Shown: piece after piece, positions 10,458-28,973 of the stretch
How positions within the stretch are numbered: the first letter of the stretch is position 1
How the letters are laid out: each line of letters starts with the position of its first letter
Origin: an uncultured Alphaproteobacteria bacterium
GTDB lineage: Bacteria; Pseudomonadota; Alphaproteobacteria; HIMB59; GCA-002718135
Assembly: GCA_902628835.1 (NCBI GenBank)
Contig: CACOPD010000002.1
Coordinates: 204,218-268,217 of the forward strand
Direction of reading: 5' to 3'
Length of the DNA stretch: 64,000 bases
Position numbers and translations under genes: made by a program
Notes under the pieces: generated by a model
The model's input: only the letters and a program-made list of their open reading frames with translations
The model's database searches: none
Told to the model about the DNA's origin: nothing

Positions 10458-12356
10458 TTAAAGAGATAAATCTTCTTTTGATAAATCCCAAGTAAGTGTA
10501 AAGACATCATCAACACTCACAACATCGTTACTAGCAGTTAAACGAATATCAAGGGAACCAAATGACTCAATAGGTATGCCAACAAAACTATTTGTAGATG
10601 GAAGAAGTGCTAACCAAGATGGTAAAGGATTTCCATCAGCAAGTTTTGCATGATAACGTGTTCTCCCTTTGCCTTCTAGATAAAATGTTTCATTACTGTA
10701 TTTAAATATAAAACCACCACCACTAAGAGAAGAATAGGCCACTAAATTATCGTTTGATTTTAATTGCTTGAGTGTTGGGTTTTGTTCATTTAGTGGCTCC
10801 ACGACTAAAGCTGTATATTTTTTAGTCCATCGATTAAGGTTATTTTCAATATTTTTTGCTAACTCCTGTTCATCCATTTCAAGTGCATTATTTGGTACAA
10901 AATTCATTCCTACAGATGAATATAATGATCCTAAACTGTACTGCAATTCTGCAAAAGCTATATCATTTCTTAATTTTGCAACAAGCAAACTTGCTTCTTC
11001 ACGAATTATTTCAAGTTCTCCAAAGCGTGAAATTTTTTGTGCATTTGAGATAAGGTCATTAATTCGTTGTGAAACCTCTAAATACTGTCTCGCATTGCTA
11101 TACTCTCTTAAAGTTTGTGCATAATTAATATTAGCAATATGGACTTGAGATAAAATTGTCATTGATAAAGCTAAGCGTTGTTCTTTTATAATTTTTTCAT
11201 TTAGTTCATTTATCTCACTATTATTACCTAGCTGAAAAACATTTAAAAGGTTTACACCTAGTAAAGCGCCATATTCAAAATTATTTTTATTATATAAATA
11301 TTTATTGGAGTCATAAGTCCAATTTGCATCAAATCTTAAAGAAGGAAAAAGAGATAACATACGAGCTCTTGCCTCTTTTGCATTAACACGTTCTTGATAT
11401 GCAATTTCTAATAATTCTGGTCGAGAAAACAGTGCTGTCTCTTCTTGTCTCTTAAGATCCATTCGAAGTTCTGTAAGTGGTTGAGCTGTATGAACAAGAA
11501 CATATTTTTCATCTGGAAGTAATCCCATTAAACCAGCTAACTCAACTCTTGCATCCATTAAAGCACGTTGTTGAGTGTCAAGTATCTGCGCTACATCAAG
11601 TAATTCTTTTTGATAGAGCAGAGCATCCATTGGAGAAGATAATAGAAGAGTTTCAATATACTCCATATCTTCTAATGCAGAATTAACTTTCTCCATTAAA
11701 GGATTGATTTGATCTAAAAGGTAATCTGCAGAAATTGTTTTCCAATATGCATAAATGATTTCTCTTGTTAAATTTTGAACAGCTTTTCTTTCTAACTCTT
11801 TAGAGATTAAATAACGATCTGCTTGTTGACCTGCACGAACATAGGACAAACCAAAATCAAGTGCATTCCAAGTAAAGCCGTATTCACCTGTTCGCTGTCT
11901 TCTTTCAGATGAAACAGTGTAAGAAGGATCATCTCCTAACTCACCTGGTCCCGTTTCTCTATCACTAATTGCTAAACTTGTTGAACCAGGAAATTGACTT
12001 AAATGTTTATATCCTGCATTAACTGCAAATTGAGGAAGCATATCAAACTTAACAACATCAATCTGACCTTGGCTAAGTGCAGACTCCATCATTTGAATAC
12101 GAAGATTGCGATTATGTTTAATTCCAATTGCAATAGCTTGGTATAAATCTATTTCTTTAACAATATTTTCTGTTCCAGCTTTTAATTCATCATAATCTTT
12201 TTTTGATTGTGATTTTATAGTTTCTTGATCTAAGCCAGTAGGAGCTCTGCTTCCACAACTTGTAAGGAGTAGCAATAAAGGGATGGAAATAAGTAACTTT
12301 AAAAAGAAATTTAAATTAAAGTCATATTGCTTAGATTTATCTATAAAAACCGTCAT
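10458..12356 (-). CDS. TolC-family outer membrane efflux lipoprotein with C-terminal CADG/Ig-like domain
   Basis: ORF 10458..12440; start revised to internal Met (MTVFIDKSKQ...LLLLLTSC lipobox). OEP-type repeats; last ~95 aa form a separate beta-rich module (LADGNPLPSWLALLPSTNSFVGIPIESFGSLDIRLTASN). Confidence 0.8.
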   Translation of the reverse strand: MTVFIDKSKQYDFNLNFFLKLLISIPLLLLLTSCGSRAPTGLDQETIKSQSKKDYDELKAGTENIVKEIDLYQAIAIGIKHNRNLRIQMMESALSQGQIDVVKFDMLPQFAVNAGYKHLSQFPGSTSLAISDRETGPGELGDDPSYTVSSERRQRTGEYGFTWNALDFGLSYVRAGQQADRYLISKELERKAVQNLTREIIYAYWKTISADYLLDQINPLMEKVNSALEDMEYIETLLLSSPMDALLYQKELLDVAQILDTQQRALMDARVELAGLMGLLPDEKYVLVHTAQPLTELRMDLKRQEETALFSRPELLEIAYQERVNAKEARARMLSLFPSLRFDANWTYDSNKYLYNKNNFEYGALLGVNLLNVFQLGNNSEINELNEKIIKEQRLALSMTILSQVHIANINYAQTLREYSNARQYLEVSQRINDLISNAQKISRFGELEIIREEASLLVAKLRNDIAFAELQYSLGSLYSSVGMNFVPNNALEMDEQELAKNIENNLNRWTKKYTALVVEPLNEQNPTLKQLKSNDNLVAYSSLSGGGFIFKYSNETFYLEGKGRTRYHAKLADGNPLPSWLALLPSTNSFVGIPIESFGSLDIRLTASNDVVSVDDVFTLTWDLSKEDLSL

Positions 12357-12410: not shown

Positions 12411-12425
12411 GACCCAAAATGGGTC
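12411..12425. promoter_or_regulatory. Palindromic candidate operator GACCCAAAATGGGTC
   Basis: Perfect 5-bp arms, AAAAT centre; 13-mer core ACCCAAAATGGGT recurs at 28567-28579 upstream of a wHTH regulator. Confidence 0.6.
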
Positions 12426-12470: not shown

Positions 12471-15400
12471 ATGCACCAAAAAACACCAAAACAATTGGTA
12501 AACTCAGGTTTAAAGTTTCAAGCACTTGAGCCTAGAATTATGTTTGATGGAGCAGCAGTTTTTACTGGTGTAGAAGCTCTCGATCAAATTGAAAATCAAA
12601 ATACATCACAAATTCAAAATGATATTAATCAAAATGATAGTGTTGAAGTATTATTAAAAAATAAAGATACAAAAAAAGAAATAGTTTTTATTGATAAAGG
12701 TGTTGATGACTATCAAAGTATAGTGAATTCTATTGATAGTTCAAAATCAATTTATCTAATAGATACTCAAGAAAATGGTTTTGAAAAAATTCAAGACGTA
12801 TTAAGTAATCAGACTGATGTGGATGCAATTCATATTGTTGGTCACGCAAACGTAGGACAAGTCGTATTAGGAAACTCAGTATTAAATGCTGAAACAATTA
12901 ATTCTTTTAAAAGCAATCTTGAATCAATTGGTGAAAGTTTAACAAAAGACGGCGATATACTTTTTTATGGTTGTAACTTAGCAAAAGGTGAACAAGGAAA
13001 ACTTTTTGTTCAACAAATTGGAAATATAACGCAAGCTGACATTGCAGCATCTGATGATATTACAGGTGAGGGTGGTGATTGGGATTTAGAAAAAAAATAT
13101 GGCATTGTTGAAACTAAAGGTATTCAAGTTGTTGATTATAAACATTCTCTTCTTCAAAATGGAATCTCATCCTTAACTGGTTTTGTAGAAAACACTGGAA
13201 CAAATTTACGAGCTGGTACTAGTGATGGTGGACACGCAGCAGCTGCCTCTAACCACACTGATGGTAACAAACCTTTTGTTATCACTCTAGAGAGAGAAAA
13301 TATAAATTCAGGTACTTTTAATTTCTATAAAGTTAATAGTTTATCTACTGGATTTGAGGAAAACAATAGTGGTGTTCAAACTGCAGGTCCTGATATAACT
13401 TCAAATACTACAACTGTTGATGCTTCATCAACACCTATGAACTCATACTATGTTTATGCAACAGAAAACTCAGGAAGAAATGATGTTAGAGAAGTAACTT
13501 TTGAAAACGAAATCTTGGGTGTGTGGTTCAATATGAGTAATGTTATTGAATATTCAGGAGTAGATAAAAGTAGCGGAAGCTATCATACTATAAGCGAACA
13601 TGGAAGTGGCAGCCAAAATGCTTGGAGTACTGAAAAATTAAAATGGGAATGGGGTACAAGTGTAACCGATAGTAGTAAGCCTTCAGGTCACAAAAGTGAT
13701 TGGTTTGGTGTCGATACCGATTCAAATACACTTTATGTTGGATTTAATAATGGAAGTCAGCATGGTGATATTATTAGAGTATTTACTGCAGCAGCATCCA
13801 ATCAAGCACCTGTAGCTGTTAACGATACAGATAGTGTTAATGAAGATGCAACTGTAACTAAAACAGGCTCTCAAAATGATGTTTTAAATGATGATAGTGA
13901 CCCTGATGGCGATACAATCACAGTTACTCAAATAAAACATAGTACAACTTCAAACTCTGCTGTTAGCGGAAGTACTACTTATAGTAATGGTACATCAGTA
14001 ACTGGAACTTATGGTACATTAACTATTGGTGCTGATGGTTCTTACACCTATGTTGCTGATCAATCAGCTGCTGATGATTTGGATGCGGGTGATACAGCCA
14101 CTGATGTTTTTACATATACAATATCTGATACTGTAGACACTGCTACAGCTACTTTAACTATAACTGTAACAGGTATCAATGATGCACCAGTTGCAGTTGA
14201 TGATACAGACTCAGTTGCTGAAGATGCAACAGTTACAAAAACTGAATCGCAAAATGATGTTTTAAATGATGATACAGATGCGGATGATTCAGCATCTCTA
14301 ACTGTAACGCAAATTAAGAAAGATGGTGGATCAAATTCTGCTGTAAGTTCAGGAAGTACTTATAATTCTAGCGGTACATCAGTAACTGGAACTTATGGTA
14401 CATTAACAATTGGTGCTGATGGTTCTTACACCTATGTTGCTGATCAATCAGCTGCTGATGATTTGGATGCGGGTGATACTGAAACAGATACATTTGTTTA
14501 TACACTTTCCGATGGAACAGATACTGATACTGCAAATTTAGTTATTACTGTTACAGGAGTCAATGATACGCCAAGTGCACAAAATGATGTTGGTGTAATT
14601 AATGAAGGAGAAACTCTAACGGTTACAAATGGTTCTAACCCTGTACTTTCAGGTTCTTACGATGCAACAGGTGAAAACTCAGGTGATTTGATGGATACAA
14701 ATTCTAGTTCACATAAAGATAGTGACCCTGATGATTCTCCAACACTGAGAATTTCCGCAATACAACCTAGCGGTGGCTCATCATCTTCTGTTGCTAGTGG
14801 TAGTTCTTATAATAGTAGTGCTACTTCAGTAACTGGTTCTTATGGTACTCTTACAATTGGAGCAGATGGATCATACGCATATGCCGCTAATGATAGTATA
14901 TCTGGTTTTGATGCTAATGAGACTTTAACAGATACTTTTACCTATACTTTATCTGATGAACATGATGCTACAGATACCGCAACTTTAACGATCACACTTT
15001 TAGGTCAAGATAATGAGGGTCCCACTGGTGTAAATAATACCAATGCTGTTAATGAAGATGCAACAGTTACAGTTACAAATGGAACAAGTGGTGTAACAGG
15101 TGATGTTTTAATTAATGATACTGATCCAGAAGGCGATGGACTTACAGTTACAAAAATTAAAAAGAGTGGAGGATCTGATTCTAATGTCTCTTCAGGTAGC
15201 TCATACAATAGTAGTGGAACATCAGTAACAGGAACTTATGGTACATTAACAATTGGTGCTGATGGATCATATACTTATGTTGCTGATCAAGCAGCAGCTG
15301 ATGCATTAGACGCTGGTGATACTGAAGATGATGTTTTTGTTTATACATTATCAGATGGTAATGGTGGAACTGATACAGCTAATATCACAATTACAGTTAC

Positions 15401-18400
15401 GGGTATTAATGATGATCCTGTTGCAGTAAATGATACTGACTCAGTTAATGAAGATGCAACTGTTACAAAAACAGGTGCTCAAGATGATGTGTTAAATGAT
15501 GATACCGATGCTGATGCTTCTGCATCATTAACTGTAACTAAGATTAGACCAAATGGTGGATCAGACTCTACTGTAAGTTCTGGCAGTACGTATAATTCAA
15601 GTGGCAGGTCAGTTACCGGTACTTATGGAACATTAACTATAGGTGCAGATGGTTCATATACCTATGTTGCTGATCAAGATGCTGCAGATGAATTAGATGC
15701 TAGTGATGCTGTTACAGATGTTTTTGTTTATACAGTATCAGATGGAACGACTCCTGTTACTGCAACATTGACAATTACAGTTACTGGTGTGAATGATGCG
15801 CCTGTTGCGGTAAATGATACTGATGCTGTGAATGAAGATGCAACCGTTACAAAAACTGGATCGCAAAATGATGTTCTAAATGATGATACAGATGCCGATG
15901 ATTCAGCATCACTTTCAGTTACAGCAATTCAACCAAGTGGTGGTTCAAGTTCAAATGTTTCTTCTGGTAGTTCCTATAATAGTAGTGGAACATCAGTAAC
16001 AGGAACTTATGGTACTCTTGTAATTGGTGCTGATGGTTCATATACATACACGGCAGATCAATCAGCTGCTGATGCACTAGATGCAGGTGATACAGCTACT
16101 GATGTTTTTACTTATACTCTATCTGACGGCACAGCAACAGACACGGCAACTTTAACAATTACTGTTACTGGAATTAATGATGCGCCTGATGCCATAGATG
16201 ATACTGATAGTGTTAACGAAGATGCAACTGTTACAAAAACTGGATCGCAAAATGATGTTTTAAATGACGATACTGATGCCGATGACTCAGCTTCTTTAAC
16301 TGTTACACAAATAAAGAAAGATGGAGGATCTAACTCAGCTGTATCTTCAAGTAGTACATATAATAGTAACTTCACATCTGTAACAGGAACTTATGGTACT
16401 CTTAAAATTGGCGCTGATGGTTCGTATACTTATGTTGCGGATCAAGCTGCAGCCGATGCATTAGATGCAAGTGATACTGTTACAGATGTGTTTGTCTACA
16501 CAATAAGTGACGGGACTGATACAGACTCAGCAAACTTAACAATTACTGTTACAGGTGTAAATGATGATCCAGTGGCAGTAGATGATACCGATGCTGTGGA
16601 TGAAAATGAAACTGTTACTAAAACAAATTCTCAAGATGATGTTTTAAATGATGATACTGATGCCGATGACTCAGCATCTTTAACTGTTACACAAATCAAA
16701 AAAAATGGCGGATCTAATTCTGCAGTTTCTTCAGGAAGTTCTTATAATAGTAGTGGTACTTCAGTAACAGGAACATATGGAACATTAACTATTGGGGCTG
16801 ATGGTTCATATACCTATGTTGCTGATCAAGCAGCCGCAGATGCATTAGATGCTGGTGATACAGAAACTGATGTGTTTGTGTATACAGTTAGTGACGGGAC
16901 TTCTACAGACACTGCCAACTTAACTATTACTGTAACTGGAGTAAATAATACACCTATTGCACAAAATGATGTTGGTGTAATAACTGAAGACAGTACTCTG
17001 ACCGTTGCTAATGGAGCTAATGCAAATGAGACTAATGATGCTGGCAGTACATTTAATGCGTCAGGTGAGCATTCTGGTGATGTTTTAGATACATCTTCTA
17101 GTTCTCATCAGGATAGTGATGCAGATGAGTCAGCAGTTTTAGTTGTTTCACAAATAAAAAAAACTGAAGGAGATAATTCAACCGTTTCCTCAGGCAGTTC
17201 CTATAATAGTAATGGAACATCAGTAACTGGAACTTATGGTACTCTTACAATCGGTGCTGATGGTTCTTATACGTATGTTGCTGATCAAGCTGCTGCAGAT
17301 AGTATTGCATTAAATGAGTCTCAAGATGATGTTTTTGTATACACTATGACAGATGGCACTGAAACTGTAAGCGCAAATCTTACAATTACAGTTTTGGGTA
17401 CAAATGATAATCCTACTGCACAAGATGATGTCGGTGTTATTAATGAAGGAGGAACTTTAACTGTTCAAAATGGAGATAATGCAAATGTTTCTGGAAGCTA
17501 TGATGCTAATGGTGAAAATTCAGGAGATGTAATCGATACAACATCTAGTTCTCACAAAGATACTGATCTTGATACAAGTGATACTCTTTCTATTACAAAA
17601 ATTAAAAAAAGTGGAGGATCTGATTCAAATGTTTCTTCTGGAAGTTCGTATAATAGTAGTGGAACTGCAGTAACTGGAACATATGGTACTCTTACAATCG
17701 GTGCTGATGGATCATATAAATACGTTGCTCAGTCAGATATCGCAGGACTTAATGATGGAGCCACAGTTACGGATACGTTCACTTACACATTATCTGACGG
17801 AACAGCAACGACGACAGCTGATATTACAATAACGGTTATTGGTGGTGCTGCATCAAATAATTCTCCAAGTGCTGTAAATGATACTGATGCTGTCAATGAA
17901 GATGCTACAATTACAAAAACAGGTGCGCAAGATGATGTTCTAAATGATGATAGTGACTCCGATGGGGATACAATTACAGTTAATCAGATTCAACCAAGTG
18001 GTGGATCTGCTTCATCCGTAAGTGCTGGCAGTACTTATGATTCTAGTGGTACATCAGTAACTGGTACTTATGGTACTCTTACAATCGGTGCTGATGGTTC
18101 ATATACCTATGTTGCTGATCAAAGTGCTGCTGATGATTTAGACGCTAGTGATACTGCAACTGATACTTTTACATATAGAATTACTGATGGGACCGCTACA
18201 GATACTGCAACATTAACTATTACTGTTACTGGAGTAAATGACACTCCTTCTGCAGTCGATGATACCGATGCAGTTAATGAAGATGCAACTATTACTAAAA
18301 CAGGATCTCAAGATGATGTTTTAAATGATGATACCGATGCAGATGATGATGACACATTTTCTGTAACTGCAATACAACCAAGTGGCGGCTCTTCCTCTTC

Positions 18401-21400
18401 AGTAAGCTCTGGTAGTTCTTATAATTCAAGTGGTACATCAGTAACCGGAACTTATGGTACTCTTACAATCGGTGCTGACGGTTCATATACCTACGTTGCT
18501 GATCAAAGTGCTGCCGATGCATTAGATGCAAGTGATACAGCTACAGATGTCTTTACTTATACAATTTCAGATGGTGATGCCACTGATACTGCAACACTAA
18601 CTATAACAGTAACTGGAATAAATGATGATCCAGTTGCAGTAGATGATACTGATAGTGTGAATGAAGACGCAACTGTTACCAAAACTGGATCGCAAAATGA
18701 TGTTTTAAATGATGATACAGATGCGGATGATTCATCATCTGTAACTGTCACACAAATCAAAAAGGATGGCGGATCAAATTCTGCTGTGAATTCTGGTAGT
18801 ACTTATGATTCTAGTGGCACTTCAGTAACTGGTACTTATGGTACATTAACAATTGGTGCTGATGGATCTTATACCTATGTAGCTGATCAATCTGCTGCAG
18901 ACGATTTGGATGCAGGTGATACAGCCACTGATGTTTTTGTGTATACAGTTAGTGACGGGACTTCTACAGACACTGCCAACTTAACTATTACTGTTACAGG
19001 TATAAATGATGATCCTGCGGCAGTAAATGATACTGATAGTGTGAACGAAGATGCAACAGTTACAAAAACTGGATCGCAAGATGATGTATTAAATGATGAT
19101 ACGGATGCTGATGACTCAGCTTCTTTAGTTGTTACAAATATTCAACCAAGTGGAGGATCAAGTTCAACAGTTTCTTCTAGTACTACTTATAGTAATGGTA
19201 CATCAGTAACCGGAACTTATGGTACGTTAACAATTGGCGCAGATGGTTCTTATACCTACGTTGCTGATCAAGATGCTGCTGATGCATTAGATGCAAGTGA
19301 TACAGCCACTGATGTCTTTACGTATACTTTGTCGGATGGAACAGCGACAGATACAGCAACGCTAACAATAACGGTAACTGGTATCAATGACGATCCTGTA
19401 GCAGTAAATGATACTGATGCTGTCAATGAAGATGCTACAATTACAAAAACAGGATCAGAAGATGATGTTTTAAATGATGATACAGATGCGGATGATTCAT
19501 CATCTGTAACTGTAACGCAAATTAAGAAAGATGGCGGATCAAATTCTGCTGTAAGTTCAGGAAGTACTTATAATTCTAGTGGTACTTCAGTAACTGGTAC
19601 CTATGGTACGCTTACAATCGGTGCTGATGGTTCTTATACTTATGTTGCAGATCAATCAGCTGCAGATGATTTAGATGCAGGTGATACTGAAACAGATGTG
19701 TTTGTTTATACTGTCAGTGATGGAACTACAACTCAAACAGCAAATTTAACTATAACCGTAACTGGTGTGAATGATACACCTACCGCAGTCGATGATACCG
19801 ATGCCGTTAATGAAGATGCTACAATTACTAAAACTGGATCTCAAGATGATGTTTTAAATGATGATACCGATGCTGACGACTCAGCTTCTCTTAATGTGTC
19901 AGCAATTCAACCAAGTGGAGGATCGAGTTCAACAGTTTCTTCTGGTACAACTTATAGCAATGGTACCTCTGTCACAGGTACTTATGGTACATTAACAATT
20001 GGTGCTGATGGTTCTTATACGTATGTTGCTGATCAAGCAGCCGCAGATGCACTAGATGCAAGTGATACAGCAACTGATGTCTTTACGTATACTTTGTCGG
20101 ATGGCACAGCAACAGACACAGCAACTCTAACTATTACAGTTACTGGTGTAAATGATACACCTGTTGCAGTCGATGATACTGATAGTGTTAATGAAGATGC
20201 AACTGTTACAAAAACAAGTTCTGAAGATGATGTTTTAAATGATGATACAGATGCGGACGATTCATCTTCTGTCACTGTAACACAAATTAAAAAAGATGGC
20301 GGATCTAATTCTGCAGTTTCTTCAGGTAGCTCTTATAATAGTAGTGGGACATCTGTAACTGGAACTTATGGTACATTAACTATTGGTGCCGATGGTTCGT
20401 ACACCTATGTTGCTGATCAATCAGCTGCTGATGATTTGGATGCTGGAGATCAAGTAACAGATGTGTTCACTTACACGGTTTCTGATGGTTCAGTTACAGA
20501 TACTGCAAATATAACAATCACTGTAACTGGGGTAAATGACACACCTTCTGCAACTAATGATACTGATAGCGTTAATGAAGATGAAACTGTTACTAAAACA
20601 GGTGCGCAAGATGATTTATTAAATGATGATTCAGATGCAGATGATAGTGCTAGTTTATCTATAACAAATATATCTCACTCCAATGGAAATACAGGTACTG
20701 TTGCATCAAGTTCAACTTATGCAAGTAATGGCACACAAATTGTTGGAACATACGGAACATTAACAGTAGGAGCTGATGGTTCTTATACGTACACTGCTGA
20801 CCAAGATGCTGCAGATAGTATTGCCGATGGCTCAAGTGAAACAGATGTTTTCACTTATACACTTTCAGATGGTTCAGCGACAGATACAGCTACAATAACA
20901 ATTACTGTTAGTGGAGCTGACAATGAAGTTTCCGGCGTCAATGACACTGGAGCTGTCGATGATGATAGCACTTTAAGTGTTGGAAATCAAAGCGCTGGTG
21001 TTCTATCCAATGATACCGATAATGGTAGTGCTGCATTATCTGTAGGAGAAGCTTCCGTCAGTGCAATTCGAACAGGTAGAGAAAGTGCCAGTGGCACTGA
21101 TGGAACTATTGGATCAGCACTTGTTGGAACTTATGGATCACTTACACTTAATTCAGATGGTACATATGATTATACCGCTAATACTGATGCTGCTGAAGCA
21201 CTTGCTCCAACGCAAACAGCAGTCGATTACTTTACTTATACTATTTCAGATGGAACGAGTACCGATACAGCTGAATTACAAATAACTGTTACAGGTATTA
21301 ATGATGCGCCAACATCTACTACACCTGCAACTATATTCGCAACAGAAAATCAATCAGTAATTATTCAGACAAAAACCTTCTTTAGCGATCCAGACCCAAG

Positions 21401-22673
21401 TTCTAATTCTTTTGGTCAATTAACTTACTCAGTGAGTGGTTTACCAGCTGGATTAACTATAAATTCTAATGGTAAGGTTACCGGTATTGTTACTCAAGGT
21501 ACTTATACATTTACTGTTACAGCTACTGATGGTGGTAATCTATCTACTCAACAAACATTTACTCTAGAAGTGGCTAAAAGTAATGACGTTGATGCAGTTC
21601 CTGAAAAACTAAAAATTAATAAGAAAAATATTGAGAAAAAAGTAAAAAATAAAACTGTTGTATTTAAAGAAAGATCAGTTGTAGAAGTTGCTAATCTTGA
21701 AGTTGCCAAAGATTATTCATTTAATGGAGGAATGCGTGTAGTTGATGTAGCAGTTGAAGATTTAAGTAATAATAATACTGATGATCCTACACCAATGAGT
21801 AAAAGTTTTCTTAACGAAGGGACTATTTTAGGTTTTGCTATTGGTGATGATTACAAAATTAATGTTAAGCAATATACAGCAACAATGGAAAATGGTTCAG
21901 CTGTTCCTGATTGGGTAAAAGTAGATCCAAAAACTGGTCAAACTCTAGTTCAGTTTCCTGACAATATATATTCAATTGATATAAAAATTATTGCAATTGA
22001 TAAAGATAATACAACAAGAGAAATAGATCTTACTCTTGATCAATCATCAATAAAGCCAGATAAAAGTTTGAAAAGAAGTTTAGAAAACTTTATTGATAGA
22101 AGTTCCACACTAAAATCAGAAGTATTTATTGATAATAATGGAAAGATGCAATTAAATGCTCTTAATAAAAATCAAATTGATCTAAACAGAACAGCTAATC
22201 TTAATAATAGTGAAATTGTAGATATCGAGAACAATTCTAATAACAATTCTTCTCTATCGACTTTAAAATTAGCATCAATTGATAAAAATTTAGATAAAAT
22301 TACAGTTAAGATAGCTGATGATAAAAGAAATCAAGTTGTAAAGTATTCATTAAGTATACCTGAACAAGGTTTGACTATAGGTAATCAAATACCAAACTGG
22401 CTTAAGATTAATGCTGAAACTGGTGAAATAGAAGCTACACCTCCACAAGGTTTAGATAATATTAAGTTACAAATTATTGCTGAAGATGAAGATGGTACTT
22501 TACGAACATTAGAAGTAGATCTAGATTTATCGTCTAATGATCAATCAAAATTACCTAATAAAACTATAATAGATAACGAATTAGAAAAGTTTGCTTCTCT
22601 ACAGGACCAAATTCATGTTAAATACAATGATTATGAAAATTATGGAGATAAAATTGTTAAAGTTGCTAGCTAG
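12471..22673 (+). CDS. Giant LEPR-motif/DUF4347/VCBS-cadherin-like repeat surface or secreted protein
   Basis: 3400 aa; N-term FQALEPRIMFDGAA; DUF4347-like domain (IVFIDKG...IHIVGHANVG...ILFYGCNLAKGEQG); about 19 VCBS repeats; C-terminal He_PIG/CADG-like modules; no GGxGxD RTX nonapeptides seen. Confidence 0.9.
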   Translation: MHQKTPKQLVNSGLKFQALEPRIMFDGAAVFTGVEALDQIENQNTSQIQNDINQNDSVEVLLKNKDTKKEIVFIDKGVDDYQSIVNSIDSSKSIYLIDTQENGFEKIQDVLSNQTDVDAIHIVGHANVGQVVLGNSVLNAETINSFKSNLESIGESLTKDGDILFYGCNLAKGEQGKLFVQQIGNITQADIAASDDITGEGGDWDLEKKYGIVETKGIQVVDYKHSLLQNGISSLTGFVENTGTNLRAGTSDGGHAAAASNHTDGNKPFVITLERENINSGTFNFYKVNSLSTGFEENNSGVQTAGPDITSNTTTVDASSTPMNSYYVYATENSGRNDVREVTFENEILGVWFNMSNVIEYSGVDKSSGSYHTISEHGSGSQNAWSTEKLKWEWGTSVTDSSKPSGHKSDWFGVDTDSNTLYVGFNNGSQHGDIIRVFTAAASNQAPVAVNDTDSVNEDATVTKTGSQNDVLNDDSDPDGDTITVTQIKHSTTSNSAVSGSTTYSNGTSVTGTYGTLTIGADGSYTYVADQSAADDLDAGDTATDVFTYTISDTVDTATATLTITVTGINDAPVAVDDTDSVAEDATVTKTESQNDVLNDDTDADDSASLTVTQIKKDGGSNSAVSSGSTYNSSGTSVTGTYGTLTIGADGSYTYVADQSAADDLDAGDTETDTFVYTLSDGTDTDTANLVITVTGVNDTPSAQNDVGVINEGETLTVTNGSNPVLSGSYDATGENSGDLMDTNSSSHKDSDPDDSPTLRISAIQPSGGSSSSVASGSSYNSSATSVTGSYGTLTIGADGSYAYAANDSISGFDANETLTDTFTYTLSDEHDATDTATLTITLLGQDNEGPTGVNNTNAVNEDATVTVTNGTSGVTGDVLINDTDPEGDGLTVTKIKKSGGSDSNVSSGSSYNSSGTSVTGTYGTLTIGADGSYTYVADQAAADALDAGDTEDDVFVYTLSDGNGGTDTANITITVTGINDDPVAVNDTDSVNEDATVTKTGAQDDVLNDDTDADASASLTVTKIRPNGGSDSTVSSGSTYNSSGRSVTGTYGTLTIGADGSYTYVADQDAADELDASDAVTDVFVYTVSDGTTPVTATLTITVTGVNDAPVAVNDTDAVNEDATVTKTGSQNDVLNDDTDADDSASLSVTAIQPSGGSSSNVSSGSSYNSSGTSVTGTYGTLVIGADGSYTYTADQSAADALDAGDTATDVFTYTLSDGTATDTATLTITVTGINDAPDAIDDTDSVNEDATVTKTGSQNDVLNDDTDADDSASLTVTQIKKDGGSNSAVSSSSTYNSNFTSVTGTYGTLKIGADGSYTYVADQAAADALDASDTVTDVFVYTISDGTDTDSANLTITVTGVNDDPVAVDDTDAVDENETVTKTNSQDDVLNDDTDADDSASLTVTQIKKNGGSNSAVSSGSSYNSSGTSVTGTYGTLTIGADGSYTYVADQAAADALDAGDTETDVFVYTVSDGTSTDTANLTITVTGVNNTPIAQNDVGVITEDSTLTVANGANANETNDAGSTFNASGEHSGDVLDTSSSSHQDSDADESAVLVVSQIKKTEGDNSTVSSGSSYNSNGTSVTGTYGTLTIGADGSYTYVADQAAADSIALNESQDDVFVYTMTDGTETVSANLTITVLGTNDNPTAQDDVGVINEGGTLTVQNGDNANVSGSYDANGENSGDVIDTTSSSHKDTDLDTSDTLSITKIKKSGGSDSNVSSGSSYNSSGTAVTGTYGTLTIGADGSYKYVAQSDIAGLNDGATVTDTFTYTLSDGTATTTADITITVIGGAASNNSPSAVNDTDAVNEDATITKTGAQDDVLNDDSDSDGDTITVNQIQPSGGSASSVSAGSTYDSSGTSVTGTYGTLTIGADGSYTYVADQSAADDLDASDTATDTFTYRITDGTATDTATLTITVTGVNDTPSAVDDTDAVNEDATITKTGSQDDVLNDDTDADDDDTFSVTAIQPSGGSSSSVSSGSSYNSSGTSVTGTYGTLTIGADGSYTYVADQSAADALDASDTATDVFTYTISDGDATDTATLTITVTGINDDPVAVDDTDSVNEDATVTKTGSQNDVLNDDTDADDSSSVTVTQIKKDGGSNSAVNSGSTYDSSGTSVTGTYGTLTIGADGSYTYVADQSAADDLDAGDTATDVFVYTVSDGTSTDTANLTITVTGINDDPAAVNDTDSVNEDATVTKTGSQDDVLNDDTDADDSASLVVTNIQPSGGSSSTVSSSTTYSNGTSVTGTYGTLTIGADGSYTYVADQDAADALDASDTATDVFTYTLSDGTATDTATLTITVTGINDDPVAVNDTDAVNEDATITKTGSEDDVLNDDTDADDSSSVTVTQIKKDGGSNSAVSSGSTYNSSGTSVTGTYGTLTIGADGSYTYVADQSAADDLDAGDTETDVFVYTVSDGTTTQTANLTITVTGVNDTPTAVDDTDAVNEDATITKTGSQDDVLNDDTDADDSASLNVSAIQPSGGSSSTVSSGTTYSNGTSVTGTYGTLTIGADGSYTYVADQAAADALDASDTATDVFTYTLSDGTATDTATLTITVTGVNDTPVAVDDTDSVNEDATVTKTSSEDDVLNDDTDADDSSSVTVTQIKKDGGSNSAVSSGSSYNSSGTSVTGTYGTLTIGADGSYTYVADQSAADDLDAGDQVTDVFTYTVSDGSVTDTANITITVTGVNDTPSATNDTDSVNEDETVTKTGAQDDLLNDDSDADDSASLSITNISHSNGNTGTVASSSTYASNGTQIVGTYGTLTVGADGSYTYTADQDAADSIADGSSETDVFTYTLSDGSATDTATITITVSGADNEVSGVNDTGAVDDDSTLSVGNQSAGVLSNDTDNGSAALSVGEASVSAIRTGRESASGTDGTIGSALVGTYGSLTLNSDGTYDYTANTDAAEALAPTQTAVDYFTYTISDGTSTDTAELQITVTGINDAPTSTTPATIFATENQSVIIQTKTFFSDPDPSSNSFGQLTYSVSGLPAGLTINSNGKVTGIVTQGTYTFTVTATDGGNLSTQQTFTLEVAKSNDVDAVPEKLKINKKNIEKKVKNKTVVFKERSVVEVANLEVAKDYSFNGGMRVVDVAVEDLSNNNTDDPTPMSKSFLNEGTILGFAIGDDYKINVKQYTATMENGSAVPDWVKVDPKTGQTLVQFPDNIYSIDIKIIAIDKDNTTREIDLTLDQSSIKPDKSLKRSLENFIDRSSTLKSEVFIDNNGKMQLNALNKNQIDLNRTANLNNSEIVDIENNSNNNSSLSTLKLASIDKNLDKITVKIADDKRNQVVKYSLSIPEQGLTIGNQIPNWLKINAETGEIEATPPQGLDNIKLQIIAEDEDGTLRTLEVDLDLSSNDQSKLPNKTIIDNELEKFASLQDQIHVKYNDYENYGDKIVKVAS
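13806..21308 (+). repeat. Tandem VCBS-repeat array (about 19 units, typical unit about 126 aa / 378 nt)
   Basis: Counted recurring starts of the type PVAVNDTDSVNEDATVTKTGSQNDVLNDDTDADDSASLTVTQI...GTYGTLTIGADGSYTYVADQ...TDVFTYTLSDGTATDTATLTITVTGVND. Confidence 0.9.
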
Positions 22674-23370
22674 TTTTATTTTAATATTTTCTTTATTTAC
22701 CAGCTATGCTTTTGCTGAAGAGAGAGAATCACGAGCATTAGTTGTAGCCTCACAACAAGCAGTTCTATCAAGCGAATTAGCGGCAAAAATTGATAATATT
22801 CCTGTTAAAGAAATGCAGCGTTTTAAAAAGGGTGATCTCTTAATTCAATTTGATTGTAGTTTATACGAAGCACAAAAAGATGTTGTAAGTGCAAACGCGA
22901 ATAGTGCTTTAATTAAAGTGGAAAGTGATGAGCAAATGTTTCAAATGCGTACAATAGGTAAATATGACCTTGAGCTTTCCAAATCAGAATATGAAAAAGC
23001 AAAAGCAGAATTACTGATCGCCGAACTAAATTTAAAAAGATGTAAGATTTCTGCACCATTTGATGGAGCGGTAGAAGAAATTCTTGTCAATACATTTGAA
23101 ACAATTCAGCCTCAAGTTGAGTTAATGAAAATAATTCAAACAGATGTTTTAGAATTAGAAATGGTTGTATCAAGTGAATGGATTTCATGGCTCACTATTG
23201 GACACCCAATAGTTGTATATATTGATGAAATTCAAAAAGAATTTAATGCTACCGTAAGCGGTATAGGTGCAAACGTAGATCCGGTAAGTCAAACAATACA
23301 GTTAAAAGGTACAATTACCGATGCTAGTCCTGCTCTTCTTGCTGGAATGAGTGGTCGAGTTTTATTTTGA
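22642..23370 (+). CDS. HlyD/RND-type periplasmic adaptor with signal peptide
   Basis: Start revised to MEIKLLKLLASFILIFSLFTSYAFA; lipoyl-like VVASQQAVLSSELAAKIDNIPVKEMQRFKKGDLLIQFDCSLYEAQ; LNLKRCKISAPFDGAVEE; overlaps end of giant gene. Confidence 0.8.
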   Translation: MEIKLLKLLASFILIFSLFTSYAFAEERESRALVVASQQAVLSSELAAKIDNIPVKEMQRFKKGDLLIQFDCSLYEAQKDVVSANANSALIKVESDEQMFQMRTIGKYDLELSKSEYEKAKAELLIAELNLKRCKISAPFDGAVEEILVNTFETIQPQVELMKIIQTDVLELEMVVSSEWISWLTIGHPIVVYIDEIQKEFNATVSGIGANVDPVSQTIQLKGTITDASPALLAGMSGRVLF

Positions 23371-24698
23371 GCGAAGACAAGTTAACTCGTCTTTCTCGTA
23401 TTTTTTCATTCGAAAAAAAATTACGTGAAGCCAAAAATATGTTTGAGCTTCGATACATCATAACAAATGAATTAAGAACAATTAGCCCATATGTATTTGC
23501 TTTTTTTGGAGAATGGAAAAGCAAAAATAAATTCAAAATAGAGACTGTATCTGATGTCACCGTTGTTGAAAGAACTTCGCCAACAGTTGCTTTAATCCAG
23601 AAATTAATGAGAAAAAAAATAAGTGACACTTCTTATGAAGTGCACAATTTTACATCTGACCCAAAAACTCTATCACCAGCAAAGGGAGAAAAACCGATGC
23701 CTTCAAATTTTTTATGGGTCCCATGTTTCTCGGCTCAAAAAGGACCTGAAGCTGCAATGTTGCTGTGTCGTGAAGATGAATGGAATGAAGAAGAAATAGA
23801 ATTTATAAAACATTTAAGTTCGACAATAGGGCATGCTTTTGGCTCTCTATCAAAAAACAATAGTTTTATTAGCTTTAAATTTTTGCGTAGTTCATTTTTA
23901 CAAACTGTTATATTTTTTGCTCTAATTGCAAGTATGTTTATACCTGTTGAAATATCAACAATTGGAAAAATGGAAATAATCCCTAAAGAACCAAATTATA
24001 TTAACTCACCTTTAAACGCTGTAGCCCAAAAAGTTTTGATTGAAAACAACGAAGCTATTGAAATCAATCAACCAATTATACAACTTGAAAAAACAGAGTT
24101 GCAAAATGATTATGAATTATCAATTCAAGAATTAAGAATAATTGAGACTGAATTGTTACAGGCTCAACAGTCTTCTTTTAATAGTTCGGAAGATAAAGCG
24201 TTGCTCGCAAGACTACAGGGGCAAATAAAATTAGCAAAAGAAAAAACTCTTTATCAAAAAATTTTACTTGATAAAACTTTGGTTACTTCACCTGCTAATG
24301 GTATAGCTATTCTAAAAGATAAATCTCTCATTATTGGTAAGCCTTTTCAAATTGGAGAGACAATAATGATGATAGCAGATCCAAATAAAATTTTAGTAGA
24401 GATTATGGTTCCTGTAAAAGACTCTATTACCATTAAAAGAGATGCAAGAGTGAATATCTATTTAGATTCAGATCCACTTAATGTTTTAGAGGCAAGAGTA
24501 ATTAAATTTTCTTACGAACCAGAAATGACATCCCAGAATATATTAGCTTACCGTGTTACAGCTAAGCTTATTGCAGATAATATAAATCCAAGAATTGGAT
24601 TAAGAGGTTCAGCAAAAATTTATGGTGATCAAGTTAGACTCTATTTTTATCTTTTTCGAAAACCAATTATTTTCCTTCGACAAACATTTGGTCTATAA
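23367..24698 (+). CDS. GAF-like domain + TM + HlyD-type adaptor fusion
   Basis: 443 aa: soluble N-terminal ~170 aa GAF-like (WVPCFSAQKGPEAAMLLCREDEWNEEEIEFIKHLSSTIGHAFG), one TM, then HlyD-like barrel/coiled coil; TTG start overlapping previous stop. Confidence 0.7.
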   Translation: MSEDKLTRLSRIFSFEKKLREAKNMFELRYIITNELRTISPYVFAFFGEWKSKNKFKIETVSDVTVVERTSPTVALIQKLMRKKISDTSYEVHNFTSDPKTLSPAKGEKPMPSNFLWVPCFSAQKGPEAAMLLCREDEWNEEEIEFIKHLSSTIGHAFGSLSKNNSFISFKFLRSSFLQTVIFFALIASMFIPVEISTIGKMEIIPKEPNYINSPLNAVAQKVLIENNEAIEINQPIIQLEKTELQNDYELSIQELRIIETELLQAQQSSFNSSEDKALLARLQGQIKLAKEKTLYQKILLDKTLVTSPANGIAILKDKSLIIGKPFQIGETIMMIADPNKILVEIMVPVKDSITIKRDARVNIYLDSDPLNVLEARVIKFSYEPEMTSQNILAYRVTAKLIADNINPRIGLRGSAKIYGDQVRLYFYLFRKPIIFLRQTFGL

Positions 24699-26801
24699 AT
24701 GTTAACACCATCTATTAGAGAAGATTTACAATTATTTGAGGGTACACCATTGGAAGATGGCTCTCCAACTTGGTTACTATTTGATACTTTAACAAATAAA
24801 TATTTTACAATAGGATTAAATGCATTCCGATTACTCAATTATTGGAATGCCGATGTAGATACTAAAACTTTTATAAAAAATGTTGAACAAAAAGGAGTTA
24901 ATTTAAAAGAAGAAGAATTGAGTGATTTTATTTCTTTTTTAAAAGTAAATGATCTTATATCTCATCATAATTCTGAAGATACAAAATTCTTAATTGAAAA
25001 ATATAAAAATCAGAAAAAACATTTCATTTTATCAATAATTCATAATTACTTATTCTTTAAAATCCCTCTATTAAAACCAGATACTTTTTTAGATAGCACT
25101 TTAATGTTAGCGAAAATAATTGGTTCAAAATTAGTTCGTTATATTGTCTATGTTTTAGGTTTAATTGGTATTTATTTTGTAATTCAAAATTGGGATCAAT
25201 TTATAAATACTTTTCTTTATTTTTTTAATTGGAATGGATTTATATTTTATGCTTTTTCACTTGTATTAGTAAAAGCAATTCATGAATTTGGTCATGCATA
25301 TGTTGCTAAGAACTATGGATGCAATGTAAACTCTATGGGCATTGCATTCCTTGTCTTTTTTCCTTTTTTATATACGGATAACACTAATGCCTGGAGGTTG
25401 AGAGATTATAGTAACAGATTACGTATTAATTTTGCAGGGATTTCAACAGAATTACACCTTGCTTTATTGGCAACTTTTTTTTGGTCTATTTTAGAGCCAG
25501 GCACATTAAAAAGTATAGCATTTTTTATTGCTACTACAAGCTGGGTTTCTTCTTTATTGATAAACATAAGCCCTTTTATGAGGTTTGATGGATATTACGT
25601 TTTGGCAGATTTTTTAAGAGTAGAAAATTTACAACCACGTGCTTTCTCGCTTGCTAAATGGAAATTAAGACAAATTATTTTTGGTCTTAATCACGAACAA
25701 CCAGAGAAAATGAATGCTAATAAAATAAATTTTTTAATTTTTTATGCTTGGTCAACATGGATATACCGTTTCTTTTTATTTATTGGGATCGCAATATTAG
25801 TTTACCATTACACATTTAAAGTATTAGGAATTATTTTATTTGTTGTAGAAATAATATGGTTTATTTGTCTTCCTATTTACAGAGAAATGGCTTTATGGTG
25901 GAAAATGCGCAGCGATATTGGCCTCTCTTTTAATTTTATTAGAACTATATTATTTATTTTAGTCTTATTTTTCCTATTCTTTTATCCTTGGAAAAATTAT
26001 CAAAAAATTCCAGCTATTCTCCAATCAGAAAATTTTATATCAATATATGCTCCTGAAGAAGCACAAATAAAAAGAGTGCATATTAAAGAGGGTGACAAGG
26101 TCCAAAAAGATCAACTTCTTATTGAGTTAATTTCACCATTACTAAATTACAAAATTAATCAAACAATTGGAAATCTTGAATTAGCTGACTTACAAATTAA
26201 TAATGCATTAAAAAGTAAAACAAATAGAGAGCAATTATTATCACTTAGAAGTAAAAAAAATAAATTAGAAACTGAAATTTTGAATCATAATAAAATAAAA
26301 TCATCTTTAAACATTAGAGCGCCTTTCAATGCTGAAATTACCTTTTTAGAAAAGTTTAAGAAAGACCAATGGGTTAATCAAGAAGATCCTTTGCTATCTC
26401 TAGTTGATAAAGATACACAAACAATTTTTGCTTTTATTTCTGAAAAAAATATTGCAAAAATAGATCAAACAAAAGATTTATTTTTTATTAGTTCACACAT
26501 AGATAGTCCTAAAATTCCATTATCAATTAAATCTATAAGTAAATCACCAGTAAATAATTTTAATCTCTATCCAATTGTAACATCATTGTATAGCGGCCCT
26601 ATTGCTGCAAGAGAAAATTCTAGTTCAGACATAATATCTGAACAAGCCTATTATCTAATAAGTATGAACTTAGTAGGGGATATAACTAAAGTGGATCAGA
26701 AAATGCTAGGTTCAGTGAATATAGCAATTTATCCAACTAGTTTTGCAGAACGAATTTATAAGTATGTTTATGCTGTCTTAATTAGAGAATTAAGTTTTTG
26801 A
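24699..26801 (+). CDS. PqqD-like domain + M50/site-2-protease-like membrane protein + HlyD-type adaptor fusion
   Basis: 700 aa: N-term PTWLLFDTLTNKYFTIGLNAFRLLNYW (PqqD-like); HEFGH at 25281-25295 (HExxH); FMRFDGYYVLADFL motif; multiple TMs; C-term lipoyl/HlyD region (SIYAPEEAQIKRVHIKEGDKVQKDQLLIEL). Confidence 0.8.
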   Translation: MLTPSIREDLQLFEGTPLEDGSPTWLLFDTLTNKYFTIGLNAFRLLNYWNADVDTKTFIKNVEQKGVNLKEEELSDFISFLKVNDLISHHNSEDTKFLIEKYKNQKKHFILSIIHNYLFFKIPLLKPDTFLDSTLMLAKIIGSKLVRYIVYVLGLIGIYFVIQNWDQFINTFLYFFNWNGFIFYAFSLVLVKAIHEFGHAYVAKNYGCNVNSMGIAFLVFFPFLYTDNTNAWRLRDYSNRLRINFAGISTELHLALLATFFWSILEPGTLKSIAFFIATTSWVSSLLINISPFMRFDGYYVLADFLRVENLQPRAFSLAKWKLRQIIFGLNHEQPEKMNANKINFLIFYAWSTWIYRFFLFIGIAILVYHYTFKVLGIILFVVEIIWFICLPIYREMALWWKMRSDIGLSFNFIRTILFILVLFFLFFYPWKNYQKIPAILQSENFISIYAPEEAQIKRVHIKEGDKVQKDQLLIELISPLLNYKINQTIGNLELADLQINNALKSKTNREQLLSLRSKKNKLETEILNHNKIKSSLNIRAPFNAEITFLEKFKKDQWVNQEDPLLSLVDKDTQTIFAFISEKNIAKIDQTKDLFFISSHIDSPKIPLSIKSISKSPVNNFNLYPIVTSLYSGPIAARENSSSDIISEQAYYLISMNLVGDITKVDQKMLGSVNIAIYPTSFAERIYKYVYAVLIRELSF

Positions 26802-28025
26802 TTTTAAATTATTATAACTAACCCCAATCATTAGAAATAATCCTAAACTTAATAACAGTATTGAAAAACCAAAACCAACTCGCTGAGATATTAAAAATGT
26901 TAAAGCAGAAGCCAAAATTGGACCTAAAAAAGCTGTAATTTTACCAGATAGAGTAAATATTCCAAAACTAAAACTTTGTCTGTTATTATCAGTTAAATTA
27001 GCCATAACAACTCTGCTTGAGCTTTGAAGTGGACCCGTAAAAAAAGTAGCTATTATCACATATAATATAAACATTGATTGATTTGTATTTATGGAAATTA
27101 ATAAGATTAAAAAAATTACAATAGTCAAAGTTAAAATTATCGTTAATTTATCATTTTTAATTAAATATCCAAATAAGTAACAACCTATTGCACCACTGAT
27201 GTTAGCTTGTAGTCCAAGAACTAATATTTGTTGTAAAGATAAGCCCATTACAGAAGTTCCAAAAATACCTATCGTAGTAGTAATAATAACTAAACCATCA
27301 ATATAAAAAAGCCTCGCTAATAAAAAACGCCCAGTGTTAGTTAATTTATCTTTCCAAATTAAAGATTTAATTTCAACAAAGGTATGGTGTGTGTATTTTT
27401 CAGCAATATTATTAATTTTAGACAAAAACAATAATGGCAAAGCAAAAAGTAAAAACCAGAAAGCTAATACTATATGCACAAAACGAATATGATCAAAATT
27501 TTCTTTATTCAAATTAAAAATATTTTTTTCAGGTAAAATAAAAAATTGTAAAAGTAAGAAAAAAATTATGACTCCACCAATAAATCCAGAGCCAAAACCA
27601 ACTCCTGAACCTAAAGTAAGATTAGTAGGATAGCAGTCTTTTAGAGTAGCATTATAAAAACTATTAGAAATCTCGTAAGTAATTCCACTAATAAATAAAA
27701 CTAATAAGGCATAGTAAGTGTAACTTGATGAAGGTTTTATTAGAAAAAAGCTACCAATTGCAATAACACAAAATATTGAAAATAATCTTAAAAAAAATAC
27801 TTTTCCATTTTCTCTACTATCTGCAATTTTTCCAAGGTATGGCATTACTATACCAACTATTATACCGGTAATACCAATTGTGAATTGCCATAGAGCTGTA
27901 CCATATTGAGGATCATCAACTACGTTGTTTACAAAATAACTTGATGTTAGGGCTGCGATGACAATCATTGGAAATACGGAGTTTCCAACATCATATAATG
28001 AAAATGATAATAATTTGTTCATCAA
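26790..28025 (-). CDS. MFS transporter, UMF1-like
   Basis: 411 aa, about 12 TM, SLYDVGNSVFPMIVIAALTSSYF N-terminus typical of UMF1-type MFS; convergent overlap with M50 gene. Confidence 0.7.
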   Translation of the reverse strand: MMNKLLSFSLYDVGNSVFPMIVIAALTSSYFVNNVVDDPQYGTALWQFTIGITGIIVGIVMPYLGKIADSRENGKVFFLRLFSIFCVIAIGSFFLIKPSSSYTYYALLVLFISGITYEISNSFYNATLKDCYPTNLTLGSGVGFGSGFIGGVIIFFLLLQFFILPEKNIFNLNKENFDHIRFVHIVLAFWFLLFALPLLFLSKINNIAEKYTHHTFVEIKSLIWKDKLTNTGRFLLARLFYIDGLVIITTTIGIFGTSVMGLSLQQILVLGLQANISGAIGCYLFGYLIKNDKLTIILTLTIVIFLILLISINTNQSMFILYVIIATFFTGPLQSSSRVVMANLTDNNRQSFSFGIFTLSGKITAFLGPILASALTFLISQRVGFGFSILLLSLGLFLMIGVSYNNLKSKT

Positions 28026-28031
28026 AATATT

Positions 28032-28547
28032 TTAATTTTTATTTTCTATACTTGAGATAGCTGAACTTTTTTTGTTCATATCTTTCATAAGCTCTTGTAA
28101 GAAACCTATGCTCTCCATATCTTGAATTAAGAAAGATAACTGTTTAAGTGTATGCACTGAAAAACTCTTAAGTATTTCTGAATATTTTTCAGTAAGCATA
28201 ATTCCTCCAGTATTATCTTTAACAAGTAGATTTAATGAAATTAATCTATTCACTCTACGTCTCACACTTTCTTTTGGTTGTTCTAATATATTAGCAATAC
28301 TTAAAATTGATAATTTGGATCGTTTAAAAATTTTTGTAATTTTTTCATCTTTTAGATTTGATAAATCTTTAATTGAAAGTGACTCAGAAAATTTTAAGTT
28401 ATAGCCTAATTGCGCAGCTACAGTATTTAGAACCATCATTTCATCAAAAGTTAGTTTTAATTTACCCACTCTTTTGTAATAATCAGTTAAAAACATTAAA
28501 AACGCATAACCTACGTTTGAAAATTCTTGGTTTGAGTCAATTCTCAT
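28032..28547 (-). CDS. Winged-helix transcriptional regulator
   Basis: 171 aa; SKLSILSIANILEQPKESVRRRVNRLISLNLLVKDNTGGIMLTEKY wHTH-like segment. Confidence 0.65.
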   Translation of the reverse strand: MRIDSNQEFSNVGYAFLMFLTDYYKRVGKLKLTFDEMMVLNTVAAQLGYNLKFSESLSIKDLSNLKDEKITKIFKRSKLSILSIANILEQPKESVRRRVNRLISLNLLVKDNTGGIMLTEKYSEILKSFSVHTLKQLSFLIQDMESIGFLQELMKDMNKKSSAISSIENKN

Positions 28548-28564
28548 AATATAATTCTAACAAT

Positions 28565-28581
28565 AAACCCAAAATGGGTTT
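28565..28581. promoter_or_regulatory. Palindromic candidate operator AAACCCAAAATGGGTTT
   Basis: Perfect 6-bp arms, AAAAT centre, in the 81-bp gap between divergent regulator and ABM-like gene; shares a 13-mer with 12412-12424. Confidence 0.65.
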
Positions 28582-28628: not shown

Positions 28629-28973
28629 ATGTCTAAATTCATAAGTGTAGTTAAGTTTAAAGTTAAAACAGAAGAAGAAAATAATTTTATTGAAGCGATG
28701 CAAAAATATAATTTACCAGATGGTTTAATTTATAGGAAATTAATTAAAACAGGTGAGCATTCTTATTGCAGCATTATTGAATGGGCAAACGAGGCTGCTT
28801 TGGAAGATGCAAGGCCTCATATGATAGCTTTTCTTGATACAATTAGAAATATGTTAATAGAGTTTAGTCAAGAATTAGGTGTTACTGATCCAGCATCTGG
28901 TCCTGTTGTAATTGATCAAAGTGGCCCAGTAGCAGAATCTGGAAAAACTATTACTGGGAAATTAAAGCTATAA
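28629..28973 (+). CDS. Antibiotic-biosynthesis-monooxygenase (ABM)-like small protein
   Basis: 114 aa; VVKFKVKTEEENNFIEAMQKY...SYCSIIEWANEAALEDARPHMIAFLDTIRNML fold-like pattern. Confidence 0.5.
   Translation: MSKFISVVKFKVKTEEENNFIEAMQKYNLPDGLIYRKLIKTGEHSYCSIIEWANEAALEDARPHMIAFLDTIRNMLIEFSQELGVTDPASGPVVIDQSGPVAESGKTITGKLKL

Follow-up and report, generated by a model that had tools for sequence, protein, structure and literature searches.

The 64,000-nucleotide stretch of DNA analysed here (the window) contains a giant gene (12471–22673, plus strand) encoding a BapA/LapF-type adhesin of 3400 amino acids, with a DUF4347 domain and VCBS/cadherin repeats. Divergent from it lies the gene for a TolC-type outer-membrane channel with a lipoprotein-like signal (10458–12356, minus strand, with its start placed at the internal Met at 12356), and 3' of the giant gene are genes for an HlyD-type adaptor, a second HlyD-type adaptor and an M50-protease/HlyD fusion (22591–26801, plus strand). 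A winged-helix regulator of 171 amino acids, with a MarR-like predicted fold and no Pfam family, is encoded at 28032–28547 on the minus strand, and directly downstream is the gene for an Atg22-like MFS transporter of 411 amino acids (26790–28025, minus strand), with which it probably forms one operon. The gene divergent from the regulator (28629–28973, plus strand) encodes a small protein resembling the ABM domain (E of 0.008, below the Pfam cut-off). The TolC-type protein (10458–12356) carries a C-terminal extension, unusual for TolC, that weakly matches the Ig-like He_PIG family, narrowly missing the Pfam cut-off, and this extension may contact the adhesin. The M50-protease/HlyD fusion resembles the daptide HExxH proteases (NCBIfam E of 1e-38, below cut-off).

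Two palindromes lie between these divergent genes, and are treated here as candidate operators. Operator 1, GACCCAAAATGGGTC (12411–12425), is placed between tolC and the giant adhesin gene, with 55 bp separating it from tolC's internal Met and 46 bp from the giant-gene ATG (12471); operator 2, AAACCCAAAATGGGTTT (28565–28581), falls between the divergent ABM-domain gene, whose ATG (28629) is 49 bp away, and the regulator gene, whose ATG (28547) is at 19 bp. The original prediction, made from the window by eye, was of two palindromes with a common 13-bp core and no third copy, and both read as it had described. The core, ACCCAAAATGGGT, matches exactly at 12412–12424 and 28567–28579, and these two matches are the only ones in the window and in the whole genome (1,476,895 bases, 84% complete), where the reversed control has none and about 0.02 copies are expected by chance from composition. 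Over the same genome no match was found with one mismatch, and matches with two mismatches (22, vs 27 for the control) are not in excess; hence, the pair of copies stands out sharply. The genome-wide motif scan that had been proposed as a check therefore returns very few matches, and no third site at zero or one mismatch in window or genome. Further matches to the relaxed pattern RCCYANNNTRGGY in genome G000 were considered as extra sites and those read (L003, L014, L024) are coding sequence, as are two matches with two mismatches in the same genome (L011, L017).

Beyond this genome, 11 further exact copies of ACCCAAAATGGGT occur in 60 relatives, in two families, and each is found either in the tolC/giant-gene interval or in front of the orthologous regulator gene. 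The operators keep to these promoters in a second family of the order as well, even though identity there is down to about 44% for the regulator and 69% for TolC. Between families, the operator at the regulator promoter is identical at 13/13 positions vs 41% in ungapped flanks, and the operator at the tolC promoter at 10–11/13 vs 25% in its flanks. The operator keeps an almost constant spacing to the regulator start: 19 bp for the genus of the window, and 22 bp for most genomes of the other one. Phylogenetic footprinting, a second check that had been proposed, thus finds both sites conserved in the orthologous promoters of both genes in two families. The homologous operator of the sister family falls upstream of the tolC reading frame, which supports the predicted start of tolC at 12356. 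Across the order, the pattern ACCCANNNTGGGT also matches at tolC and regulator promoters; the other matches examined are all coding with the exception of L037, where ACCCACTATGGGT (L037:1485–1497) is intergenic between unrelated genes in a genome (G033) in which no regulator was found. Matches to ACCCAAGGTGGGT in f2 genomes were discarded as sites, being coding sequence inside a UmuC-like gene. The total count of relaxed patterns is not above the control, and only their location near the regulator is enriched. The shortness of the motif, with relaxed versions as common as the control, would suit a chance repeat without function, a reading to which we give next to no credence given how few copies are expected and their recurrence, in two families, at one and the same pair of orthologous promoters.

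The palindrome might instead work in RNA, as a leader hairpin or bidirectional terminator, and AAACCCAUUUUGGGUUU could indeed make a 7-bp stem. This reading is very improbable and was rejected: a terminator-like signal was searched for and none was found, both sites lie between divergent genes, and several of the second copies (ACCCATTTTAGGT) contain a C-A clash that would weaken the stem. At the regulator promoters of eight f2 genomes there are two copies of the site, 21 or 23 bp apart, or approximately two helix turns, a phasing that fits DNA binding.

The proposed binder of both operators has no Pfam match up to an E of 0.05, and matches NCBIfam profiles only far below their cut-offs. Its AlphaFold2 model (pLDDT 81, pTM 0.72) has a helix-wHTH-helix order, so that the N- and C-terminal helices flanking the wHTH of the MarR fold are present in the predicted structure. 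The named top matches of a Foldseek search against the PDB are MarR-type regulators, these being MarR, RovA, NadR, MepR and MexR, with a moderate structural similarity (best E of 4.8e-4, TMq 0.35–0.53). The D-x-R motif in the wing, a feature of classical MarR proteins, is absent, and the alignment reads KDNTGGIMLTEKY or KDESNGIILGENY at this position, without Arg. Since no MarR profile matches, we describe the regulator as MarR-like and do not file it as a member of that family. A sequence search of solved structures gave no convincing relative, and a viral origin was dismissed after no relatives were found in viral contigs. A palindromic site is consistent with binding by a dimer of this protein, as judged from sequence.

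We surveyed 162 genomes of the order, finding the regulator in 20 and the tolC gene in 37, and the operator is present, at both promoters, in genomes that have the regulator and a readable tolC promoter. Three species with more diverged regulators (G143, G057 and G138) have a G-variant (GCCCA) of the tolC operator, GCCCATTTTGGGC, and their regulator promoters also have GCCCA in at least one copy. Conversely, tolC is kept without the regulator and without the tolC operator in 14 f2 genomes whose tolC promoter was read (17 by pattern and gene search). These 14 genomes form one clade in the TolC tree (100/100), nested inside operator-carrying lineages, and the co-loss of regulator and operator in f2 is therefore a single event rather than many independent ones. 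In the regulator-less f2 loci that were read, the regulator and MFS genes are gone from between the M50-HlyD and ABM genes, which are now about 50 bp apart. The ABM-domain-like gene stays in place after this deletion. A separate deletion of regulator and MFS occurred in the window's own genus, in G109, where a stub from the start of the regulator remains and the operator on the regulator side is broken; the tolC promoter was not found in the G109 assembly. In three genomes (G008, G124 and G041) the operator is present and the regulator was not detected, but these are uninformative about co-loss because the ABM gene is missing too and the G041 contig ends inside the giant gene. One genome, G568, has regulator and MFS genes without a recognizable site. 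Taken across species, a conserved operator common to the regulator's own promoter and its putative targets is the pattern of an autoregulated local regulon, and the operator was lost when the regulator was lost, in the one clade and, on the regulator side, in G109.

A class-level search located homologues of the regulator in a further order with small genomes, probably SAR11 and referred to as such below, where they again adjoin this MFS gene, with the regulator-MFS pair kept. A weight matrix trained on sites of the window's order alone detects sites upstream of 11 of the 12 SAR11-order regulator orthologues (shuffle p at most 0.017), and in only 1 of 16 more distant paralogues. In one such genome, G695, 8 of the 11 genome matches of RCCYANNNTRGGY fall within 37 kb around the regulator. 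This region (L211–L212, G695:C1:177000–216999) is a type IV pilus cluster with the regulator-MFS pair inside it and several sites between operons. Its pilus genes encode a PilB-like ATPase with an MshEN domain, PilC, a secretin, PilO, PilY1, a PilT-like ATPase, prepilins and a prepilin peptidase, and the cluster also holds autotransporters and a STAS/HATPase/SpoIIE partner-switch set. The layout is the same in G564 and G790, with fewer sites. Over six such genomes, 21 matches remain once the regulator's own promoter is excluded, and 12 of them are no more than 25 kb from the regulator (binomial p about 1e-11, treating matches as independent). Paralogues of 320–380 amino acids also occur in the SAR11 order (in G563, G785, G638 and others), and one 345-amino acid frame of G638 has two matches to the regulator profile, suggesting a version with tandem domains.

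These distributions bear on whether the palindromes might be operators of another, unlinked transcription factor, with the winged-helix gene merely one target. An operator sequence does not by itself name its binder, but we consider such a factor improbable, as the site was lost together with the regulator in one clade, the variants of the operator are distributed by regulator clade, and in SAR11-order genomes, where the neighbouring genes differ, homologous sites still accompany the regulator gene. We assign a probability of about 0.85, from comparison of sequences, to the reading that the palindromes are operators of the MarR-like autoregulator (28032–28547), through which it would control itself and the tolC/adhesin locus. 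The original prediction had proposed this autoregulation, and control of the export locus 16 kb away, and it now draws support from the rarity of the motif, its conservation, its co-loss with the regulator, the base changes common to both promoters and the SAR11-order sites.

For the mechanism, we infer physical binding, a dimer, a ligand, and repression rather than activation. A regulator dimer would bind ACCCA-N3-TGGGT. At 28567 it would shut down its own promoter and the downstream MFS gene, and perhaps the divergent ABM-domain gene, which is possibly under operator 2 also. At 12412 it would control two divergent promoters, one for tolC and one for the giant adhesin and the exporter genes behind it, the HlyD-type adaptor genes and the M50-protease/HlyD fusion being likely co-regulated. 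The regulator would be released by a signal, which is probably a small molecule that the MFS protein handles, allowing adhesin and channel to be made together.

By analogy with MarR proteins the regulator probably acts as a repressor. No sigma-70-like promoter was recognized at operator 2, and the sign of regulation therefore rests on analogy and position. The same regulator and operators could also serve to activate the adhesin and tolC promoters while repressing the regulator's own; MarR-family proteins such as RovA and SlyA can be activators or anti-silencers, and operator 1 is far enough (46–55 bp) from both start codons to accommodate either sign. Most MarR proteins, however, repress by overlapping the core promoter, the operators here are near start codons (19–22 bp at the regulator), and the adhesin and a promoter that can be aligned persist in the clade without the regulator, which is easier to explain if the site was a brake. 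We consequently regard activation as rather unlikely, and repression as the more probable action of the regulator.

Few regulators are known from streamlined marine bacteria of this kind, in which surface attachment would not be expected to play a prominent part. A regulator and operator amenable to testing in vitro would help to show when a giant adhesin or pili are produced by such cells. We can further propose, at even odds, that the MarR-like regulator family and the Atg22-like MFS protein constitute a dedicated surface-attachment switch in streamlined ocean Alphaproteobacteria, a family not described before, in which one operator type has been kept and its target swapped (type IV pili in the SAR11 order, the giant adhesin and its exporter in the window's order), while the MFS protein would handle the sensed signal. 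If true, the use of one operator type for different surface structures in the two orders would be a clear example of a regulon whose logic was kept while its target changed.

In the papers searched we found no earlier description of the regulator-operator system, and no match for local MarR-like control of a BapA/LapF-type locus by a common palindrome. Several known systems are nonetheless similar in part. EmrR, MepR and MexR are MarR repressors of efflux pumps, with an adjacent transporter gene and a palindromic operator at their own promoter, and the small winged-helix regulator here likewise adjoins a transporter gene and has a palindrome at its own promoter; unlike those systems, a second operator lies 16 kb away, at the locus of a surface adhesin, and in SAR11 it is found at promoters of type IV pilus genes. 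In BapA/LapF-type loci that use type I-like export, a giant VCBS/cadherin-repeat adhesin is again placed beside tolC and HlyD-type genes, although the cluster here includes the M50-protease/HlyD fusion and has no ABC transporter among the cluster proteins scanned. A close functional parallel is a MarR-type repressor of an adhesin: in Neisseria, the MarR-family protein NadR represses the surface adhesin gene nadA through several operators, one of which overlaps the -10 element and start site, and in the gonococcus its homologue, FarR, is a repressor of the FarAB efflux pump (PMC2791445). NadR is among the top structure matches of the regulator described here, which differs in having no Pfam MarR match, in its operator and in its pairing with an Atg22-like MFS gene, and whose proposed target, a giant adhesin, comes with a tolC and HlyD-type exporter of its own.
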